Assembly (NCBI GenBank): GCA_004347695.1 | Contig: SLTK01000007.1 | Coordinates: 288,823 to 352,822 of the forward strand | Reading direction: 5' to 3' | From: Chloroflexota bacterium | GTDB taxonomy: Bacteria > Chloroflexota > Anaerolineae > Anaerolineales > Anaerolineaceae | Length of the DNA: 64,000 nt | Part shown: in pieces, positions 3,513 through 60,652 of the stretch | Layout of the letters: each line of letters starts with the position of its first letter | How positions within the stretch are numbered: the first letter of the stretch is position 1 | The notes under the pieces: model-generated | What the model saw: only the letters and a program-made list of their open reading frames with translations | The model's database searches: none | Told to the model about the DNA's origin: nothing | Position numbers and translations under genes: made by a program

Positions 3513-3788
3513 CTGCGGAGTAGGAAAAGGAATCAGTTGGCCAGGTTGTTAAGGTACAAGAATGGATAGTCTTATTATAGAAACTATTTTCTATTTGTCA
3601 AGGACGTGATTGCGGAGCGGCGGTAGGGGGGCGCACAGCGCGCCCGAAGGTCTTAGGGGGTAGATCAAGAGGCCAGGTGAGCCCCCATGCCCGGGCGGGT
3701 CGCGACCTGTCCCTACCGAAAGGCTTCAAAGAAGATCCCTGGCCCGTTCGGATGGGAACGTGGGTATTTTTATGAGCGGGCGGGTGCT

Positions 3789-4120
3789 ACCCGCCCCTAC
3801 AGCCGCTGCGCGATTATTGTCCATTGGCTACCCCGGGTACATTTCACCTGCATCAAATGATCGCGCTGGTCTCCTGACCAGGCGCGCGACCTGACCGAAG
3901 GTCTTAAATGGGGCAGGTCAAGAGGCCTTACCCCAACCAGAAACGAGAGTCGTGCTCGGGCGGGTCTCGACCCGCCCCTACCGGTAACTTTGATCGCGCT
4001 GGTCTCCTGACCAGGCGCGCGACCTGACCAAAGGTTGTAAATGGGGCAGGTCAGGAGACCTTGCCCCAACCGAAAGACCCGCCCCTACAGCCGCTGCGCG
4101 GTTATTGTCTGTTGGCTACC
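3789..4120. repeat. Intergenic direct repeats with hairpin cores
   Basis: About 80 bases starting GATCGCGCTGGTCTCC at 3859 recur at 3992, an offset of 133 bases. Each copy holds the hairpin core GGGGCAGGTC..GCCCC. The flanking motif CCCCTACAGCCGCTGCGCG is also present on both sides (about 3794 and 4083). The 25-base core at 4043-4067 is identical to 44181-44205. The region 3211-4188 has no convincing gene. Confidence 0.75.
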
Positions 4121-14582: not shown

Positions 14583-14910
14583 CAAAAACCGGGGGGTTGC
14601 GTGCGATGCACCTGCCTTTGGTGCATTGCACGTGCATTTGCGAAAAACACGTTACAGGTCAGGTGCATCGCTCCTTGACCGTGGTTAACTAGGCGCGTGA
14701 GCAGGCCAGGAGCAACGCACTAAAATCAAAACAAAAATCGCAATGACAGATGCCGGCATAAGCAAAAACCGGCGGCTTGCGTGCGATGCACCTTCCTTTG
14801 GTGCATTGCACGTGCATTTGCGAAAAACACGTTACAGGTCAGGTGCATCGCTCCTTGACCGTGGTTAACTAGGCGCGTGAGCAGGCCAGGAGCAACGCAC
14901 CAAAATCAAC
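14583..14910. repeat. Two-copy 180-bp direct repeat with internal inverted repeats
   Basis: Bases 14583-14730 recur at 14763-14910 with only a few differences, an exact 180-base offset. Each copy contains GCGATGCACCT and its reverse complement AGGTGCATCGC about 48 bases apart (14603-14613 and 14661-14671 in copy 1), plus the small palindrome GTGCATTGCAC between them. No reading frame is convincing. It fills the gap between arsR and the oxidoreductase operon. Confidence 0.85.
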
Positions 14911-14928
14911 ACCAAAATCAAAACAAAA

Positions 14929-18160: not shown

Positions 18161-19141
18161 ATGGCCTACGACCGCTTTGGACGCAACATCCATTACCTGC
18201 GCATCAGTCTGACCGACCACTGCAACCTGCGCTGCGTGTACTGCATGCCGGAGGATATGACCTTCCGCCCCAATGCCGAAATGCTGCAGGACGACGAAGT
18301 GCTGCTGCTGGTGCGTCTGTTTGCCAGCCTGGGATTCGACAAAATCCGGCTGACGGGCGGGGAACCCACCGTGCGGGCGCACGTAGTCGATCTGGTGCGC
18401 GAAATTGCCGCGGTGCCGGGCATCCGGTCGCTTTCCATGACGACCAACGGGGTGCTGCTTGGTAAGCTGGCTCAACCGCTCAAAGACGCCGGTCTGCAGC
18501 GCGTCAACATCAGCCTTGACACGCTCGACACCGTCCGCTTCAAGAAAATCACTCGCTGGGGGTCGTTTGACCAGGTCTGGGAGGGTATCCAGGCCTCCGA
18601 AGCAGCCGGGCTGACCCCGGTCAAGCTGAATGCAGTGGTGGTGCGCGGCTTCAACGACCAGGACATTGCCGGCATGGCCGCTCTGACGCTGGAAAACCCC
18701 TGGCAGGTGCGCTTTATCGAAATGATGCCGTTTGGCGGCGCTACCGATTTGCAGCGCCAGCAGGTGGTCACCGCAGAGGAAATGCGCAGCCAGATCGAAG
18801 CCGAGCTGGGACCGCTGACGCCGGGCAACAACGGCAAGCTGGACGGCGAGGCGCGCATTTTCCGCCTGCCGAACGCCAAAGGCGAACTTGGCTTCATATC
18901 CTCGGTCACCGCGCCATTTTGCGCCGCCTGCACCCGCGCCCGCCTGACCGCCGACGGCAAGCTGCGGTTGTGCCTGCTGCGCGATAAAGAGGTGGACCTG
19001 TTAACTCCCCTGCGCGCGGGCGCATCGCTCGAGCAACTGCGTCAAATTGTGCTGGACGGGGTGTGGGTCAAGCCGTGGGGACATGGGCTGGCGGAAGGCG
19101 AGTTTGCCACCAACCGCGTCATGAGCGAAATCGGGGGATAG
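18161..19141 (+). CDS. moaA: GTP 3',8-cyclase MoaA
   Basis: A 326-residue radical SAM enzyme for the first step of molybdenum cofactor synthesis: GTP to 3',8-cyclo-7,8-dihydro-GTP. The SAM cluster motif CNLRCVYC (Cys21, 25, 28) is N-terminal; the second [4Fe-4S] site, CxxC then Cys 13 residues later (FCAACTRARL..LRLCLL), is C-terminal. It ends in the conserved double Gly (EIGG). AAGGGA precedes the ATG. No other moa genes are adjacent except the MoaD-like protein at 41117. Confidence 0.96.
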   Translation: MAYDRFGRNIHYLRISLTDHCNLRCVYCMPEDMTFRPNAEMLQDDEVLLLVRLFASLGFDKIRLTGGEPTVRAHVVDLVREIAAVPGIRSLSMTTNGVLLGKLAQPLKDAGLQRVNISLDTLDTVRFKKITRWGSFDQVWEGIQASEAAGLTPVKLNAVVVRGFNDQDIAGMAALTLENPWQVRFIEMMPFGGATDLQRQQVVTAEEMRSQIEAELGPLTPGNNGKLDGEARIFRLPNAKGELGFISSVTAPFCAACTRARLTADGKLRLCLLRDKEVDLLTPLRAGASLEQLRQIVLDGVWVKPWGHGLAEGEFATNRVMSEIGG

Positions 19142-19262
19142 CGAAGGCGTGTCACGTACCAAGTGCCAGGTATCACGCCCGAAGACAGTCGGAACAATAA
19201 TTCGGGATTGACCCGATAGCAGGCCGCGATTGGAAACCAGTTTCCACCGCAAAAGCAAACCG

Positions 19263-19385
19263 AGGCTGTCTCAAAAGAATAAATTGGTCATTTATTCCAT
19301 CCCATATATGCGGGATAGGGTGGAACCCATCCCCTTGTACAGTTAGGGGCGGGTTTCCACGCCTGACCGCTTTTGGGACAGTCCC
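19263..19385 (+). mobile_element. MITE copy A (GGCTGTCTCAAAAG family)
   Basis: About 123 bp between moaA and the thiolase gene. It starts AGGCTGTCTCAAAAG and ends CTTTTGGGACAGTCCCT. It aligns along its length with 37862-37980 and, in reverse, 59587-59705. The ends resemble those of DDE insertion sequences, but no transposase is encoded, so a non-autonomous element is likely. Confidence 0.8.
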
Positions 19386-19432: not shown

Positions 19433-20647
19433 TTAAACCAGGCTCTCGACAATCGTAGCTTCGCCCTGGCCGACGCCCACGCACAACATTGCCATGCCGT
19501 AATACGGTTTGGCAGCCTGCGGCGCGCGGCGCGACATCTCGTGCAGCAGCGTGGTTAAAATGCGCGCCCCGGAACATCCCAGCGGGTGGCCCAGCGCCAC
19601 AGCGCCGCCGTTGACATTGACAATTTCCTCGGAAAGCCCCAGTTCGCGGATAACCGCCAGCGACTGAACAGCAAAAGCTTCATTGAGCTCCACCAGGCCA
19701 AGCTGCTCGATACGCAGTCCGGCGCGGGCCAGCGCCTTGTGCGCCGCCGGTACCGGACCGATACCCATGATGCGCGGGGGCACACCCGCAACCGCCGAGG
19801 AAAGCACGCGCGCCATGGGCTTCATGCCCAACTCGGCGGCTTTTTCAGCACTCATCACCAGCAGGGCGGCTGCGCCGTCGTTCAACCCGGAGGAGTTGCC
19901 GGCGGTCACCGAGCCGTCCTTGCGGAAAGCCGGTTTGAGCTTCGCCAGCGATTCCAGCGTGGTATCCTGCCGCGGGCGTTCATCCTGGCTGACCATGACC
20001 GGATCGCCTTTGCGCTGCGGTACCGGCACCGGGACAATTTCGGCGGCAAAACGCCCGGAATCCATGGCAGCCACGGCGCGCTGGTTACTCTGCAGGGCAA
20101 AAGCGTCCTGGTCGGCGCGGCTGATGCCGGTCATATCAGCAATATTTTCAGCGGTCACACCCATCGAATCGGTGCCGTACAGGGCTTCCATTTGGGGGTT
20201 GGGATAACGCCAGCCAAGCGAGGTATCATAGGCTGTCAGGTTGCCGAAGGGATAGCCGCGCTCGGCTTTGGGCAGCGAGTATGGCGCGCGCGACATGCTT
20301 TCCACGCCGCCGGCGATAAAAATATCGCCTTCGCCCGCGCGAATAGCCCGCACCGCCATGTTGACCGCGTTCAGCCCGGACGCGCACAAACGGTTGACCG
20401 TCACCCCGGCGGTTTCAACCGGCAGACCGGCCAACAGCGCCGCCATGCGCGCAACATTACGGTTATCCTCGCCGGCCTGGTTGGCGCAGCCGAAATAAAC
20501 TTCCTCGATCTGGTCGGTAGGCACATGGGTGCGTTCGACCAGAGCCCGGATGATATGCGCAGCCAGGTCGTCCGGGCGCACACCGGAAAGCGTCCCGCCC
20601 AGCGCGCCAATCGGCGTGCGGACTGCATCTACGATGACAACTTCCAT
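19433..20647 (-). CDS. Acetyl-CoA acyltransferase (thiolase, PcaF/PaaJ-like)
   Basis: A 404-residue degradative thiolase. The nucleophile Cys88 is in [10 protein letters not shown], the catalytic His motif is NEAFA/GHPLG, and the second Cys is in [24 protein letters not shown] is typical of the beta-ketoadipyl-CoA thiolase branch (PcaF/PaaJ), although acetoacetyl-CoA thiolases share much of it. It should cleave 3-oxoacyl-CoA with CoA or run the reverse condensation. It lies 42 bases downstream of guaB on the same strand. Substrate not certain. Confidence 0.92.
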
Positions 20648-20689
20648 CACAACACTGCTCCTTCTTCATGTATGGGGCTTGCCCGGCCA

Positions 20690-35740: not shown

Positions 35741-36442
35741 ATGGCGCGTTTTGCTGGGTTCCCCGCCGGTAAATCGCGGCTGACTCGCTTGCCGGCTGTT
35801 TTTTTTACGGATTTGCTGTCCGAAATTGACCATCTTGGCGAGCTCAAGGTGACCCTGTATGCTTTCTGGTTTTTGGACCGGATGGAAGGGGAGTTGCGCT
35901 TTATCCGTTATCAGGACTTTGCCCGTGACAAGGTTTTACTCGCCGGGCTGGGCGGCCAGCCAGACGCCGGGCTTGAAGCCTTGAACGAGTCCCTGGAACG
36001 ATCCGTGCAGCGCGGTACCATGCTGCGTGTGCAACCTGCCGGCAACCTGGACGAGGCTATCTATTTCATTAATTCACCGCGCGGAAAAGCTGCTGCCGCC
36101 GCTTTGGAAAACAGGGAATGGTCGCCGCAGGATACCGCCCGCGTCCCGCAGACCCTGGAAATGGAGCGGCCGAACATCTTCCGCCTGTACGAGCAGAACA
36201 TAGGCCCGCTCACCCCGCTGATCGCAGACGCCCTGCGCGAAGCCGAAGCTACTTACCCGATGGAATGGATCGCCGAGGCCGTGCGCGCCGCGGTCGAGGC
36301 CAATGTGCGCCGCTGGCGCTATATTGATGCGATTTTGCGCGCTCGTTTGGAGAGAGAACCCAATGGAACCACTCGAAGAGAAACTGAAAAAGATCGCCGA
36401 AAATATGTCGAAGGGGAATTTGGTGACTTCATCGAGCATTGA
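35741..36442 (+). CDS. DnaD-domain protein (primosome adaptor)
   Basis: A 233-residue protein. The N-terminal half (about 15-110) is winged-helix-like (VFFTDLLSEIDHLGELKVTLYAFWFLDR). The C-terminal half (about 145-205) is a DnaD domain: NIFRLYEQNIGPLTPLIADALREA...YPMEWIAEAVRAAVEANVRRWRYIDAIL. Firmicute DnaD helps place the helicase at origins and restart sites. Its position between dnaB and the loader-like ATPase supports the same role here. It overlaps the loader gene by 80 bases. Confidence 0.85.
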   Translation: MARFAGFPAGKSRLTRLPAVFFTDLLSEIDHLGELKVTLYAFWFLDRMEGELRFIRYQDFARDKVLLAGLGGQPDAGLEALNESLERSVQRGTMLRVQPAGNLDEAIYFINSPRGKAAAAALENREWSPQDTARVPQTLEMERPNIFRLYEQNIGPLTPLIADALREAEATYPMEWIAEAVRAAVEANVRRWRYIDAILRARLEREPNGTTRRETEKDRRKYVEGEFGDFIEH

Positions 36443-37790
36443 TCCTGGCGACCGCGCACGCCAGTTCCTGGGGGATCCCAACTGCCCGATTTGCGGCGGG
36501 GTTGGCTTTGTCCGCCGCGACCTGCCGGTCGATCACCCTGATTTTGGCAAATCGACTGTTTGCACCTGCCGCCAGAGCCAGATTGCGCAAACCGAACGCC
36601 AGCGGCTTTACCGCCTGAGCAATTTGGACGCCTTCCAGAATATGACCTTCGAGACCTTCAAGGTGCAGGGCCGGCTTGGGCTGGGGGAAGCGCAGTTGCG
36701 GTCGCTGCAGTTTGCCTTTAACCAGGCGCAGCAGTTTGCCCGCAGTCCGCTCGGCTGGCTGCTGTTGATGGGCGGTTACGGCAGCGGCAAGACGCACCTG
36801 GCAGCCGCCATCGCCAATCAGATGGTTGAATTGGGCGGCTCGACCCTGTTCGTGACCGTGCCGGACCTGCTGGACTGGCTGCGGTTTTCCTTCGAGGGCG
36901 GCGATTCCAGCCTGGAGCAACGCCTGGAAGAAATTCGCAACGTCCGCCTGCTGGTGCTCGATGATCTGGGGACGCAAAATGCAACCCCCTGGGCTGAAGA
37001 AAAGCTTTACCAGATCATCAATCACCGCTATGTCAACCGGCTGCCGATGGTGATTACCACCAACCTTTCGCTGAACGAGATCGATGGCCGCATTTCCTCC
37101 CGTTTGCAGGACCCGGACCTGGTGACCCTGCTGGAGATTCATGCCCCCGATTACCGTTCGCCGGTGTCGGATGAAGGCCGCTCGATCATCTCTTCACTGG
37201 CGTTGTTAAGCGACCGCACCTTTGGTTCTTTCTCGCTGCGCGAGTATGAGAAATTACCCCAGGAAGAGCAGCAAAGTCTGCAAAAAGCGTTTGGCGCCGC
37301 CACAGCCTACGCCGAGGATCCTCAGGGCTGGCTGGTGCTGATGGGCGGATACGGCTCCGGGAAGACCCATCTGGCGGCTTCCATTGGCAACTACCGCAAA
37401 GCGATGGGCGAAGACCCCATTTTTGTAGTGGTGCCCGACCTGCTCGACCATTTACGCGCCACTTTCAGCCCATCCAGCAACACATCGTATGACCGGCGCT
37501 TCGAGGAAGTGCGCTCGGCCCCGTTGTTGATCCTGGATGACCTGGGCACCCAATCAGCTACCCCCTGGGCGCGCGAAAAGCTCTACCAATTGCTCAACTA
37601 CCGCTACAATGCCAAACTGCCGACCGTGATTACCACCGCGCAACGCCTGGACGAAATCGATCCGCGCGTGCGCAGCCGCATGCTGGATAAACGCCTGTGC
37701 ACCATTTACGGTATTACCGCACCGCCTTACATGGCAGGCGCGTCCTCCCCGGCGCGCCGGAAGCCGCCAACGCGGCGTTCCGGCGGTTAG
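36363..37790 (+). CDS. Tandem double DnaC/DnaI-like AAA+ ATPase (helicase loader-like)
   Basis: A 475-residue protein. Residues 41-69 have a Zn-type CPICGG...CTC motif. AAA+ module 1 (about 94-250) has Walker A GGYGSGKTH at 137-145, Walker B LLVLDD at 196-201, sensor-1 ITTN at 231-234 and GRISSRL. Module 2 (about 287-442) repeats the order at an offset of about 192: GGYGSGKTH at 328-336, LLILDD at 388-393, but ITTA where Asn is expected, then RVRSRM. Usual DnaC/DnaI loaders have one AAA+ module of 200-330 residues in all. ATG 36363 has GGAGAG upstream. It should load or remodel DnaB, inferred from gene order. Confidence 0.9.
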   Translation: MEPLEEKLKKIAENMSKGNLVTSSSIDPGDRARQFLGDPNCPICGGVGFVRRDLPVDHPDFGKSTVCTCRQSQIAQTERQRLYRLSNLDAFQNMTFETFKVQGRLGLGEAQLRSLQFAFNQAQQFARSPLGWLLLMGGYGSGKTHLAAAIANQMVELGGSTLFVTVPDLLDWLRFSFEGGDSSLEQRLEEIRNVRLLVLDDLGTQNATPWAEEKLYQIINHRYVNRLPMVITTNLSLNEIDGRISSRLQDPDLVTLLEIHAPDYRSPVSDEGRSIISSLALLSDRTFGSFSLREYEKLPQEEQQSLQKAFGAATAYAEDPQGWLVLMGGYGSGKTHLAASIGNYRKAMGEDPIFVVVPDLLDHLRATFSPSSNTSYDRRFEEVRSAPLLILDDLGTQSATPWAREKLYQLLNYRYNAKLPTVITTAQRLDEIDPRVRSRMLDKRLCTIYGITAPPYMAGASSPARRKPPTRRSGG

Positions 37791-37817: not shown

Positions 37818-38156
37818 GATTGAGCTTGTCGAAGCCAGCGCTCACTCACAGTACGCATGGCGGGGCTGTCTCAAAAGAATAAATTTGTCATTTATTCCAC
37901 CACATATACGGGATGGGGTGGAACCCATCCCCTACCTGTAGGGGCGGGTTTCCACGCCCGCCCGCTTTTGAGACAGCCCCCTACGCCGCTGCGCGGTCCG
38001 GGTGGCTGAACCGCCCCGGTGGGCAGCCCGCCGGGCTTCGACAGGCTCAGCCAACGGCGGGCCACCCCCTTGACATGCTTGCACACAGCACGCATGGCGG
38101 GAGCGCAGTGCGCTCCCCTACAGCCGCATGCCCTTTGACCCTTCGACAAGCTCAAT
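37818..38156. repeat. REP-like palindromes related to those inside copB
   Basis: The core CTTCGACA[A/G]GCTCA appears at 37818-37836 (reverse), 38033-38052 (forward) and 38139-38156 (forward). The same core is inside the copB coding repeats. The gene-free stretch 37791-38209 is made of these and MITE copy B. Confidence 0.75.
37862..37980 (+). mobile_element. MITE copy B, perfect 16-bp terminal inverted repeats
   Basis: A 119-bp element with GGGGCTGTCTCAAAAG at 37862-37877 and its exact reverse complement at 37965-37980. The interior matches copies at 19263 and 59587. No transposase gene; a clear target duplication is not visible. Confidence 0.88.
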
Positions 38157-38209: not shown

Positions 38210-39568
38210 TTATGGCTGAACCACCCGGCCGAGGAACAATACTGCTCCGGTCTGGCTGTCGCGGATAAGGAAAAGGAACGGGCGGTCCACCTTGACCTCA
38301 ATGGGTTCGCCGACCGGCATCGATTTCAAGCCCATCACCACCCCGGTGGCGGCGGCAGCTTCCGTGCCTTCCTCGTTGACATTTACATAAGCTTTATGCA
38401 CGACATCGGTAATAAACAGATCAGGCTGGCCGGTCATGCCCGAGAAATCGGCTCTGGCAACATCGAAGGCATCCGGCATGCCCATAGCTGCCAGAATATC
38501 GGCCAACCCGAATGCGGAATCGATCTTGAACTTAGGCATGGAAAGGTCGAGCCGCTGCATCGTTAGCTGGTCAAGGATGGATTGCAGTTGCACGGAATCC
38601 AAACCGTCCTCGAAAGCGGTAAATTGCTCTTCGTCGGGCAGTAAAATCAGCATCGATAATGCGTTGCCTTCGTAAAATAGCTCAATTGCCTGGAAATTTT
38701 CGGCTTTAAGGTAGCCAAAGCTCTCCGTCTGACGCATCATCGGCACCTGGACTTCGCTGCCATCCAGCAAATCGAACGAGTCATCCTCTGTAGCATCTTC
38801 TTCGAAAGGCAGCAACCAGGCAGCATTGAAGTAGATGGCATTGGTCAGCACCAGGCGAGTCATTGGATTGAGCGCACCTTGCGGGATCAGATCTTTAATT
38901 TTGTCCTCGGTTTGGTCCGCAACCCAGTCATTGATGGTCTGGCGGGCAGCATCAGGCTGGTTGTAATCCACCGCCTGCATGCCAGCGCCGTAATTGAGTG
39001 CCAGTGTGTCCAGGAAATCAGGCAGGAAGGCAAACCCCTGTTGACCCCAGAGGGCGTTGGCAATATTGAGCTTGAACCCGGTCTGCTCGCCCTCACCAGC
39101 ACGGCTGTCCAGCTCGGAGCTGAGCGCATTGAAGGCCGGGTGCAAGTCGGCCTGGGGCAGGTCAAAGTGCATGGCAGCAGCCATCTGCGACGCAGTCTCC
39201 GCTTTTGCGCCGGCGTAGGTCATGGCCAGCGCCTGGGAAATGCTGAACGGCGAATAAAACAGGTTGCCATCCTGGCTGCGCAACTGCTGATATAAGTCGA
39301 GCGCAAAGGCTGTGTTGCCACTGGATAAGGCTGGCAGGTTGTCGTAAGCAGTCGAAGGCGGATTCTCACGCGGTTTATCGGATTGCAAGCGGATCGGTTC
39401 AGTCATAGGGGTGGGCTCAGAAGGGAGAGAGGTCGGGTCAATACCCGGTACGGACGGTGTGTCGGCTACCGGGCCAGGAACGCTGGGAGTGGGTTGTTGG
39501 GCGCAGCCGGCGGCTGACAGAGCTACCACCGCCGCGGCAAGCGTGATCTTTCTTAAAAGGGACATCAT
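38210..39568 (-). CDS. Serpin-family protease inhibitor, lipoprotein
   Basis: A 452-residue protein with a lipoprotein signal (LSAAGC, Cys22), a Pro/Ser/Thr linker to about residue 75, then a full serpin fold. The hinge NEEGTEAAAATGVV has the Gly and small residues at P15-P9 that allow loop insertion, so it should be an inhibitory serpin. Counting from the hinge puts Lys-Ser at P1-P1' (MGLKSMP), which suggests a trypsin-like target. The C-terminal FLFLIRDSQTGAVLFLGRV is the family signature. AAGGAGAAA precedes the double ATG. It should face outside the cell membrane. Confidence 0.94.
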   Translation of the reverse strand: MMSLLRKITLAAAVVALSAAGCAQQPTPSVPGPVADTPSVPGIDPTSLPSEPTPMTEPIRLQSDKPRENPPSTAYDNLPALSSGNTAFALDLYQQLRSQDGNLFYSPFSISQALAMTYAGAKAETASQMAAAMHFDLPQADLHPAFNALSSELDSRAGEGEQTGFKLNIANALWGQQGFAFLPDFLDTLALNYGAGMQAVDYNQPDAARQTINDWVADQTEDKIKDLIPQGALNPMTRLVLTNAIYFNAAWLLPFEEDATEDDSFDLLDGSEVQVPMMRQTESFGYLKAENFQAIELFYEGNALSMLILLPDEEQFTAFEDGLDSVQLQSILDQLTMQRLDLSMPKFKIDSAFGLADILAAMGMPDAFDVARADFSGMTGQPDLFITDVVHKAYVNVNEEGTEAAAATGVVMGLKSMPVGEPIEVKVDRPFLFLIRDSQTGAVLFLGRVVQP

Positions 39569-44342: not shown

Positions 44343-44577
44343 CAGCCGGCGGGTGGTACCCGCCCCACAAGCCGCATAATCATACTGCCAAGTGCTTGAA
44401 TCGTCAAGGATTCCAGCGCTGACAGGATTCCAACGCTAACAGGATTCCAAGGCAGGATTCCAAGGCTGTGACAGATTCAGGACTTACCCCCCGTCGAATA
44501 TCCTCCCCAACGAATATTCCGTTTATCCTTAAACTGTGCAATAATATTCTTCAACCTTTCTTGGTCAGGAGCATTCC

Positions 44578-58817: not shown

Positions 58818-59426
58818 ATGCCTGTAATGCCGGAACCAATCGAAAATCTGACGCTGGCTTTGGAGCGATTGCCCGGCATTGGCCCCAAAACAGCCTCACG
58901 CCTGACATTCTTTCTGTTGCGCGCGCCTGAAGAAGTGTCTTTGGCGTTGGCAGAAGCGTTGACCGCTTTGAAATCCTCCACCGGGTTGTGCGAGGAGTGT
59001 TTCAACATTACCCGCTCTGACCAGCCCAAATGCGAGATTTGCGTCAGCGACAAGCGCGACGAGGGCATGTTGTGTGTGGTTGAAGAACCACTGGATGTGC
59101 TGGCGCTGGAGCGCACCGCCGGGTATTTTGGGCGGTATCACGTTTTGCATGGAGTGCTTTCTCCCATCGAGGGCATAGGGCCCGAGGATCTAAAAATCAG
59201 GCCGTTGTTGGAACGCGTCCATGCCGGCAAGGTGCGTGAAATAATTTTGGCGACCAACCCTAGTATGGAAGGCGATGCCACTGCGTTGTATTTGCAGCAG
59301 CAACTGGCCGGGTCAGGAGTGCGCATCACACGTCTGGCGCGTGGTCTTCCGGTTGGCGGTGACCTGGAATACGCCGATCAAAACACCCTGCTGCGCGCGC
59401 TCGCCGGTCGCCAGGATTTAAGTTAA
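58818..59426 (+). CDS. recR: Recombination mediator protein RecR
   Basis: A 202-residue protein: helix-hairpin-helix (LPGIGPKTASRL), C4 zinc finger (Cys58, 61, 72, 75), Toprim domain (MLCVVEEPLDVLALERTAGYFGRYHVLHGVLSPIEGIGPEDL) and C-terminal Walker-like segment (GLPVGGDLEYADQNTLLRALAGR). Works with RecO/RecF to load RecA on gapped DNA. Confidence 0.96.
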   Translation: MPVMPEPIENLTLALERLPGIGPKTASRLTFFLLRAPEEVSLALAEALTALKSSTGLCEECFNITRSDQPKCEICVSDKRDEGMLCVVEEPLDVLALERTAGYFGRYHVLHGVLSPIEGIGPEDLKIRPLLERVHAGKVREIILATNPSMEGDATALYLQQQLAGSGVRITRLARGLPVGGDLEYADQNTLLRALAGRQDLS

Positions 59427-59440
59427 GCAGTTCGGCAACA

Positions 59441-59776
59441 GTAGGACAAACTTTAGTTTGTCCACTGCCAGCCAACAGGTTGGCGATTGGGCAAGCTGAA
59501 GCTTACCTTCCACGCAGGACAAACTTTAGTTCGTCCAGTACCAGCCAACAGGTTGGCGATTGGGCAAGCTGAAGCTTACCTTCCACGGGGCTGTCCCAAA
59601 AGCGGGCGGGCGTGGAAACCCGCCCCTACCTGTAGGGGATGGGTTCCACCCCATCCCGCATATGTGGTGGAATAAATGACAAATTTATTCTTTTGAGACA
59701 GCCTCTGCCAGCCAACAGGTTGGCGATTGGGCAAGCTGAAGCTTACCCTACATGTAGGGCAAATTTCAGTTTGCTC
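59441..59776. repeat. 73-bp tandem repeats with palindromic cores
   Basis: The unit GGACAAACTTTAGTTTGTCC plus CCAGCCAACAGGTTGGCGATTG starts at 59444 and again at 59517, and a third partial unit restarts with CCAGCCAACAGG at 59708 after MITE copy C. Each unit has hairpin-forming pieces (GCCAACAGGTTGGC, AAGCTGAAGCTT). No gene is seen in 59427-59848. Confidence 0.85.
59587..59705 (-). mobile_element. MITE copy C, inside the 73-bp repeat array
   Basis: A 119-bp element, reverse orientation to copies A and B, GGGGCTGTCCCAAAAG at the left end and CTTTTGAGACAGCCTC-like right end. It interrupts the repeat array; about 25 bases of the unit are missing at the junction. Confidence 0.85.
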
Positions 59777-59848
59777 AAGCCTATGCATTCGTTGTCTGGC
59801 CGGGGTTATAATCCAACCGTACCCATTAAGCCATCAGGGAGGTGTTGC

Positions 59849-60652
59849 ATGGAGCGTTACCGCGTAAAAGAAGACGAAAAAGTCCATTTGAAGCACATCG
59901 ACCCAGGCGATACCGGCAAATATGACGGCGAAAAAGATGAAGGACTTGAACTGCTTGGCAGGCTGAATCAGGAACTGGAGAAACTGCAGGAACTCCTGTA
60001 TGCCGAACACAAGCACCGCGTCCTGGTGGTGCTGCAAGGCATGGATACCAGCGGTAAGGACGGCGTCATCCGCCACGTGTTCGAAGGCGTCAACCCGCAG
60101 GGAGTGCGGGTCGCCAGCTTTAAAGTGCCCACCCCCGAGGAGTTGGATCACGACTACTTATGGCGTATCCACAAGCAAACTCCTGCCAAAGGTGAAATCG
60201 TCATTTTCAATCGCAGCCATTATGAAGACGTTTTGGTTGTGCGCGTTCATGAACTGGTACCCGAGATGGTATGGAAGAAACGCTACAACCAGATCCGCGA
60301 GTTTGAACGGCACCTGGTTCAGGAAGGAACGATCATTCTAAAGTTCTTCCTGCATATAGATCTGGATGAACAAAAAGAACGCCTGCAGGCGCGTTTGGAT
60401 GACCCGACCAAGACCTGGAAATTCAACCCCGGCGATCTGAAAGAGCGCGCCCATTGGGATAAATATATCGAGGCTTATGAGGACGCATTCAATAAAACCA
60501 GCACGGTCGAGGCGCCCTGGTATATCGTACCGGCCAACAAAAAATGGTACCGCAACCTGGTTATTGCCAGTGTTCTGGTCGATGCGCTGAAGAAATTGAA
60601 TATGGAATACCCGCACCCGGCTGAAGATTTAAGCGGGATTGTAATCCAGTAG
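59849..60652 (+). CDS. ppk2: Polyphosphate kinase 2, class III-like
   Basis: A 267-residue PPK2. Walker A GMDTSGKDG (64-72), Walker B NRSHYEDVLV (121-130), lid FERHLVQEGTIILKFFLHI, and the terminal WYIVPANKKWYRN. The N-terminus (RYRVKEDEKVHLKHIDPGDT) and overall sequence closely resemble the class III Meiothermus enzyme, which phosphorylates both AMP and ADP with polyphosphate. AGGGAGG sets the start at 59849. Confidence 0.93.
   Translation: MERYRVKEDEKVHLKHIDPGDTGKYDGEKDEGLELLGRLNQELEKLQELLYAEHKHRVLVVLQGMDTSGKDGVIRHVFEGVNPQGVRVASFKVPTPEELDHDYLWRIHKQTPAKGEIVIFNRSHYEDVLVVRVHELVPEMVWKKRYNQIREFERHLVQEGTIILKFFLHIDLDEQKERLQARLDDPTKTWKFNPGDLKERAHWDKYIEAYEDAFNKTSTVEAPWYIVPANKKWYRNLVIASVLVDALKKLNMEYPHPAEDLSGIVIQ

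Follow-up and report, generated by a model that had tools for sequence, protein, structure and literature searches.

The repeat that occurs three times in the window (the whole stretch of 64,000 nucleotides analysed here, C3:288823-352822 of the home genome G000) is very probably a non-autonomous miniature element of the IS1182 kind, which moves by stem-loop replacement in the manner of IS1272 and TnSha1. It is present in high copy number, shares its ends with IS1182 elements, has no target-site duplications that we could find and has palindromes at its element-free counterpart sites; in our analysis, the exchange of one hairpin for another by stem-loop replacement is the most likely way in which it moves. 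IS1272 and TnSha1 both belong to the IS1182 family, and the passages of PMC5678879 and PMC4923244 that describe their insertion report deletion of the target inverted repeat and no duplication.

A sequence-only reading of the window had described three copies of one miniature inverted-repeat transposable element (MITE), bounded by 16-bp terminal inverted repeats (TIRs), present in both orientations and with perfect ends in copy B. All of this was confirmed, except that the first base of copy A is 19262 and not 19263; copies A and B have the same orientation and copy C the opposite one. The copies and the parts of copy B are the following.

19262-19385, + strand: copy A, 124 bp, decayed, between the convergent moaA (18161-19141, +) and thiolase gene (19433-20650, -)
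37862-37980, + strand: copy B, 119 bp, perfect 16-bp TIRs, between the convergent IstB/DnaA-like AAA ATPase gene (36303-37790, +) and serpin gene (38210-39568, -)
59587-59705, - strand: copy C, 119 bp, between recR (58818-59426, +) and the polyphosphate kinase 2 gene (ORF to 60652, +)
37862-37877, + strand: left TIR of copy B, GGGGCTGTCTCAAAAG, an IS1182-family terminus
37965-37980, - strand: right TIR of copy B
37878-37896, + strand: AT-rich subterminal hairpin of copy B, AATAAAT-TTGTC-ATTTATT, seen in the sequence and present in the predicted fold
37909-37964, + strand: GC-rich imperfect palindrome of copy B, the long inner stem, from the sequence and the predicted fold
37929-37944: central palindrome of copy B, CCCCTAC-CT-GTAGGGG, where an IS110-family element sits in five genomic copies

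All three copies are intergenic. With up to three mismatches, GGGGCTGTCTCAAAAG occurs at six sites in the window, which are precisely the six element ends (shuffled expectation 0.52; six sites were reached in 0 of 100 shuffles), and the stretches 37864-37980 and 59587-59703, in copies B and C, are 97% complementary over 117 nt. Copy B is 100% identical to the copy at C3:741323, and the insertion of copy A is common to the sister species G003 (C47:8892-9008). As single-stranded DNA, copy B has a predicted folding energy of -38.3 kcal/mol versus -15.6 +/- 2.6 for shuffled sequences, the predicted fold consisting of an outer TIR stem, the small AT hairpin and the long GC-rich inner palindrome with CCCCTAC-CT-GTAGGGG at its centre. 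The claim that no transposase lies in the window holds for IS1182, the one family examined (profile NF033551, no match in the window); the gene next to copy B matches IstB_IS21, a family of ATPases and not of DDE transposases. In its longest form, the ORF covering the polyphosphate kinase 2 gene (59639-60652) starts within copy C and continues in frame into the gene, and copy C could give this gene an alternative start or N-terminus. The window also has tandem repeats at 2488-2828 (three copies, 87-bp step) and at 14583-14919 (two 157-bp copies 180 bp apart, 96% identity).

The home genome is a draft of 3.30 Mb in 14 contigs, 91% complete. Copy B gave 53 matches in it, corresponding to 40 distinct places (the best 40 of 74 candidates scored, hence at least 40), so that the high genomic copy number surmised from three copies was borne out; the remaining matches come from the second half of one long form and from the palindromic interior matching itself on the opposite strand. 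The tip GGCTGTCYCAAAAG, with at most one mismatch, occurs 86 times in G000 versus 4 times for the reversed control. Thirty-six near full-length copies were oriented for the statistics on length, TIRs and flanks: 27 are 119 bp long, nine have perfect 16-bp TIRs, 23 have TIRs with two mismatches or fewer, and only one, a decayed copy, lies within an ORF of at least 120 amino acids. The repeat is thus short, non-coding, multi-copy and TIR-bounded, which supports its description as a high-copy non-coding TIR element, i.e. a MITE. The possibility that it is part of a larger repeat holds for a few derivatives only: the long forms (336 and ~405 bp) and the five copies into which an IS110-family element has inserted. 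The long forms (336 bp, L058, in G000; ~405 bp, L101, in G003) have in common an extra interior with a long palindrome around GCGCCG. Among the places listed, the copies are unevenly spread, with 22 on C3 (1.11 Mb) versus 5 on C6 (1.04 Mb; binomial p 0.0017).

A search for an insertion sequence (IS) with the same ends led to IS1182-family elements in relatives. The exact 16-mer of the TIR, GRGGCTGTCYCAAAAG, is present in 34 of 147 genomes of the family, the reversed control in none. In G035, a member of the same family, a complete 1728-bp IS (locus L268) has GAGGCTGTCCCAAAAG at both ends, and its ORF at 1062-2624 encodes a 520-amino-acid IS1182 transposase (NF033551, 458.5 bits with a cut-off of 270; Pfam DUF772 and DDE_Tnp_1); by eye, its flanks are without duplication. 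G003, of the same genus as G000, is Chloroflexi bacterium GWB2_54_36, which also has the MITE in its records MGMG01000092.1 (C92) and MGMG01000047.1 (C47); one of its contigs ends 95 nt into an element that begins with GGGGCTGTCTCAAAAG and soon enters an ORF starting MAKKSNIPVF, a stretch too short to classify alone. The TIRs are therefore common to the MITE and to IS1182 elements of relatives, that of G035 being autonomous. Across the eight genomes of the genus, G000 included, the NF033551 profile had no match above the cut-off; G002, G001 and G003 have pieces of up to 201 bits, and the home assembly has one 19.2-bit fragment at C3:281474, outside the window. The IS1182 partner of G000 has been lost, is absent from the bin or is collapsed. 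As for the parent IS expected elsewhere, IS1182-family elements with the same ends exist in relatives and, above the cut-off, not in the home assembly; what they share with the MITE is limited to roughly the terminal 16-18 nt. Beyond the TIR, no resemblance of the MITE to IS1182 ends was seen.

A check of the flanks for target duplications had been suggested; none were found, and the element seems to replace a palindrome at its target instead. When the 36 copies were taken with 81 choices of boundary, direct repeats reached at most 5/36 copies for 2 bp, 2/36 for 3 bp, 1/36 for 4-7 bp and none for 8-12 bp. Direct matches of the immediate flanks (34 copies, 4 nt) numbered 30 versus 34.9 +/- 4.8 in shuffles, showing no excess, and the inverted complementarity of the G000 flanks (34 copies) was 44 versus 36.0 +/- 5.2, a value reached in 70 of 1000 shuffles and not significant. 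Target-site duplications are a usual, not a defining, feature of MITEs, and PMC3852290 tabulates families with DR 0. A rival reading is a canonical cut-and-paste MITE with decayed duplications, TIRs, a non-coding interior and high copy number making up the standard MITE picture. Duplications are, however, absent from copies 98-100% identical to copy B too, so decay is not the reason why they are missing; decay would also leave unexplained the palindromes of G003 that are absent in G000 (below), and we hold this origin to be highly improbable. Hairpin replacement would explain the missing duplications, and their absence is what is seen in the inverted-repeat-replacing transposition of IS1272 and TnSha1.

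The content of the target before insertion was approached through relatives. Forty-two home loci were compared with relatives' stretches, after aimed searches for copies A and B and three C3 copies and synteny-guided guesses for L001, L067, L026 and copy C; the searches in G003 scored the best 37 of 146 candidates for copies A and B and the best 40 of 106 for the C3 copies, and some counterparts may have escaped them. In the stretches concerned, G003 is 86-95% identical to G000. At all five readable element-free loci G003 has a palindrome that is absent in G000, which is replaced edge to edge at three loci, matched at one edge at the fourth and loosely placed at the fifth.

C3:758128: G003 has GGCGAGCAGTGCTCGCC between the same flanks; replaced edge to edge, the left edge to ~3 nt
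C3:767610: G003 has GGGTTGACCCATGTGTCAACCC; replaced edge to edge
C3:741323: G003 has GGACGGCGCTGTTTAGCGCCGCCC; replaced edge to edge
C3:768961: G003 has AGCCCAGGCTACGCTGGGCT followed by ATTTTTT, a terminator-like hairpin; right edge clear
C3:718123: G003 has a terminator-like hairpin (17-bp arms, T tail) within a 58-bp interval, the place of which is taken in G000 by a variant copy; loose edges

At C3:768961, G000 has kept the right edge and a similar T-rich tail, and its left flank has diverged. All five palindromes have a net arm of at least 8, a loop of at most 6 and at most one mismatch. A second palindrome of this quality lies nearby in G003 at 741323 and at 718123, and at 741323 G003 also has a GGGACAGCCCC stretch resembling a TIR remnant. 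Such palindromes, with the 10 nt on either side, take up 6.8-12.7% of the 5019 non-ORF bases of six stretches of G003, so that five out of five would arise by chance with a probability of ~1e-6 to 3e-5, a figure that rests on a small background sample and on sites from one sister species and one G000 contig. Other loci were less telling. The counterpart of copy B in G003 is element-free, and its ~720-nt interval holds other sequence, precluding a clean comparison; that of copy A in G007 is element-free with CCTCTCCCCACCGGGGAGAGG in the interval, and the adjoining flanks do not align. Copy A, L028, L054 and L059 are uninformative on the target, since a relative also has the element, or some form of it, at these places, and L026 and copy C have no orthologous site in the relatives' stretches examined.

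Two genomes alone leave the direction of the change unfixed, and the palindromes could be new in G003, the element representing the older state in G000. The more distant G007 and G001, which are only ~70-87% identical to G000 at these sites, speak on both sides of this question. At 768961 a terminator-like hairpin, ATACCCCGTGAAATCGGGGTAT, is present in G007 too, which argues against the reverse direction, and G001 has no palindrome there; at 767610 a qualifying palindrome is found in neither G007 nor G001 in the stretch read; at 758128 G007 has two palindromes, in diverged sequence. The outgroup evidence is mixed, the ancestral palindrome not always being present in more distant species. The palindromes, however, vary from site to site and the element copies are nearly identical, as is expected of recent arrivals, and we consider the reverse direction quite improbable.

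A matching pattern is seen within the window, where two paralogous sequences stand in for the sites before insertion.

38099-38117: palindrome GGGAGCGCAGTGCGCTCCC, flanked like copy B by ACGCATGGC to its left (38090-38098) and CTAC to its right; it represents, as a paralogue, the pre-insertion site
59444-59463: palindrome GGACAAACTTTAGTTTGTCC of a 73-bp repeat unit, absent from the unit that holds copy C
59517-59536: second copy of the palindrome GGACAAACTTTAGTTTGTCC, with one mismatch

Copy B reads ACGCATGGC, element, CTAC, and 237 bases onward its intact paralogue reads ACGCATGGC, GGGAGCGCAGTGCGCTCCC, CTAC. Copy C lies in the array of 73-bp repeats, the other two units of which have GGACAAACTTTAGTTYGTCC at that spot. 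With the five readable G003 sites and these two window paralogues, deletion of the target inverted repeat, as in IS1272 and TnSha1, is seen here too. In 8 of the 36 copies CTAC occurs no more than 7 nt from the right end (0.8% expected; p 4e-10), and in 2 of 36 GTAG precedes the left end (p 0.03), an enrichment that would be expected if GC palindromes ending in CTAC were frequent targets. Short GC palindromes with similar ends occur in the window at 3776-3806, 38097-38127 and 44345-44375, the first two ending in CCCCTACAGCCGC; these seem to form a host family of REP-like type, and the element is likely to target them. A REPIN-like element mobilised by a REP-associated tyrosine transposase (RAYT, IS200/IS605) would make no duplications either, the interior of the MITE has two head-to-head GTAG-tagged palindromes (CTAC-CT-GTAG), and GTAG repeats are reported from Chloroflexi (PMC3733652). 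The outer 16-bp TIR is, however, an IS1182 end and the target palindromes are removed, and we find such an origin very unlikely.

The same central palindrome is the site at which a second mobile element has entered the MITE. Ten of the 27 G000 contig ends read, out of 28, run from a MITE half into another element (five into the left end of that element, five into its right end), and a whole-genome search of G000 returned those ten places only. The right end of this element encodes, by eye, DPNYLSTA-stop, followed by CTTTCAAGACGGTATCTAC, and in G109 this right end lies after an IS110-type transposase (NF033542, E 2.5e-66); the contig-end element as query matches 22 of 147 family genomes, G000 included. 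The contig-end element was considered as the MITE parent and rejected, as it is IS110-type and inserted in the MITE centre. That the MITE is a deletion derivative of this IS110-family element might be surmised from the ten contig ends that run from a MITE half into it, but the junction is at the MITE centre, where the IS110 ends lie instead of coinciding with the element ends, and two of the ten ends (C7 start, C13 end) have the opposite orientation to the other eight, which indicates insertion into pre-existing MITE copies; a derivation from IS110 is barely conceivable. In all, five MITE copies have been interrupted at the CTAC/GTAG palindrome by an IS110-family element, and two of these five are among the 40 places, as partial matches. 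Across the family, most IS110-family right ends (L108-L126) end in TATCTAC, suggesting, as a lead only and from a query that itself contained CTAC, an IS110-family preference for CTAC/GTAG sites. The internal GTAG palindrome of Coxiella QMITE2 is similarly a landing site for an IS110/IS1111-type element (IS1111), according to PMC10969869; the MITE and the IS are different ones there, and here five copies carry an IS110-type element, in both orientations.

Elements with the same ends extend beyond the Chloroflexota. A scan of GTDB contigs for GGCTGTCTCAAAAG-N62-92-CTTTTGRGACAGCC returned at least 104 stretches, and among the matches listed (80 of at least 104) most are from Bacteroidota, the others including Ignavibacteriales, Melioribacter, Paenibacillus and GWB2_54_36. 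The elements of Flavobacterium, Chryseobacterium, Chitinophaga, Tannerella, Melioribacter, other Ignavibacteriales and Paenibacillus resemble ours in having GGCTGTCTCAAAAG ends, a length of 90-120 bp and flanks without excess direct repeats, but differ in their interiors and in AT-rich flanks that are often pairs of an A-tract and a T-tract. The flanks of 100 GTDB loci, a set that excludes two GWB2_54_36 loci, duplicates and short flanks, show an excess of inverted complementarity (243 versus 213.4 +/- 6.3 over 4 nt; 0 of 1000 shuffles), which fades to 126 of 1000 shuffles over 15 nt, and no excess of direct repeats. The inverted excess fits partial hairpin removal, albeit terminator-like A/T tracts alone could give it.

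An assembled parent was not found by pattern search in Chryseobacterium sp. ZHDP1, F. soyae, Chitinophaga, Paenibacillus, Flavobacterium sp. CF108 or an Ignavibacteriales genome. In Flavobacterium soyae the tip recurs at 16 of the contig ends examined, where either of two other interiors comes after it (10 and 6 cases); this has the look of a collapsed insertion sequence, the transposase of which was not recovered; in a sample of the genus, 44 of 199 Flavobacterium genomes match it, one besides soyae strongly, with no transposase ORF there. A 1.5-kb pair of ends in F. soyae (L231) was rejected as the parent, being a MITE copy with an IS3-like insertion near one end (two ORFs by eye); same-TIR MITE copies thus collect nested insertions.

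Neither an IS1182-associated MITE (PMC3852290) nor stem-loop replacement by IS1182-family elements is new to print. In the section of PMC3852290 devoted to them, the IS1182 MITEs of Methanosarcina acetivorans (ISMac2) are 160 bp (14 copies, DR 4) and 169 bp (7 copies, DR 0); like ours, they have essentially only the TIR in common with the IS1182 partner and one is without duplications, but their TIR is 25-26 bp, the host is another one and that section names no hairpin targets or replacement. The parts of PMC5678879 and PMC4923244 on target sites describe IS1272 and TnSha1/TnSha2 of Staphylococcus as having TIRs (16 bp in IS1272) and no duplications, like our element, with targets of IS1272/TnSha1 that are inverted repeats, terminators included, and a target hairpin that is wholly or partly deleted. 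The staphylococcal elements treated there are, however, gene-carrying IS and transposons of ~2 kb or more, whereas ours is a 119-bp, non-coding, high-copy element of the Chloroflexota. Our searches of one open-access library gave no report of a hairpin-replacing MITE, of the TIR GRGGCTGTCYCAAAAG, or of either in Chloroflexota; a CRISPR spacer in PMC5484467 happens to contain the 14-mer and has no bearing, and the consulted portions of PMC8868234, PMC13277301 and PMC3281130 hold no result bearing on a hairpin-replacing MITE or this TIR. Hairpin replacement, so far described for a few larger staphylococcal elements, appears here to be the way in which a gene-less element of 119 bases moves.

We propose that the GRGGCTGTCYCAAAAG TIRs are the ends on which an IS1182 DDE transposase would act in trans. 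Judging from the sequences compared, the element would insert at a short palindrome, a hairpin or cruciform, the transposase probably acting at an extruded hairpin, and would remove the palindrome and leave no target duplication. The replaced hairpins would include terminator-like stem-loops and the short GC palindromes of the host that end in CTAC, and the inserted element may then itself serve as a terminator. Whether this extends to other phyla is a more tentative matter: it is possible, though we would not favour it, that IS1182 satellites with GRGGCTGTCYCAAAAG ends spread across phyla by swapping the hairpins, terminators and REP-like palindromes of their hosts for mobile hairpins. If true, such satellites would rewrite transcription units at their 3' ends, leave none of the usual footprints and provide new landing pads for IS110 elements, and the residual inverted flanks of the Bacteroidota copies would be the feet of replaced hairpins. 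MITE detection often relies on target duplications, hence hairpin-replacing satellites are likely to go unnoticed or to be classed as palindromic repeats without an explanation. Should terminators be routinely swapped for a mobile hairpin, termination would change without gene disruption or a reversible footprint. Pairs of sister species like G000 and G003, one of which has dozens of copies, make the IS1272 model testable outside staphylococci.
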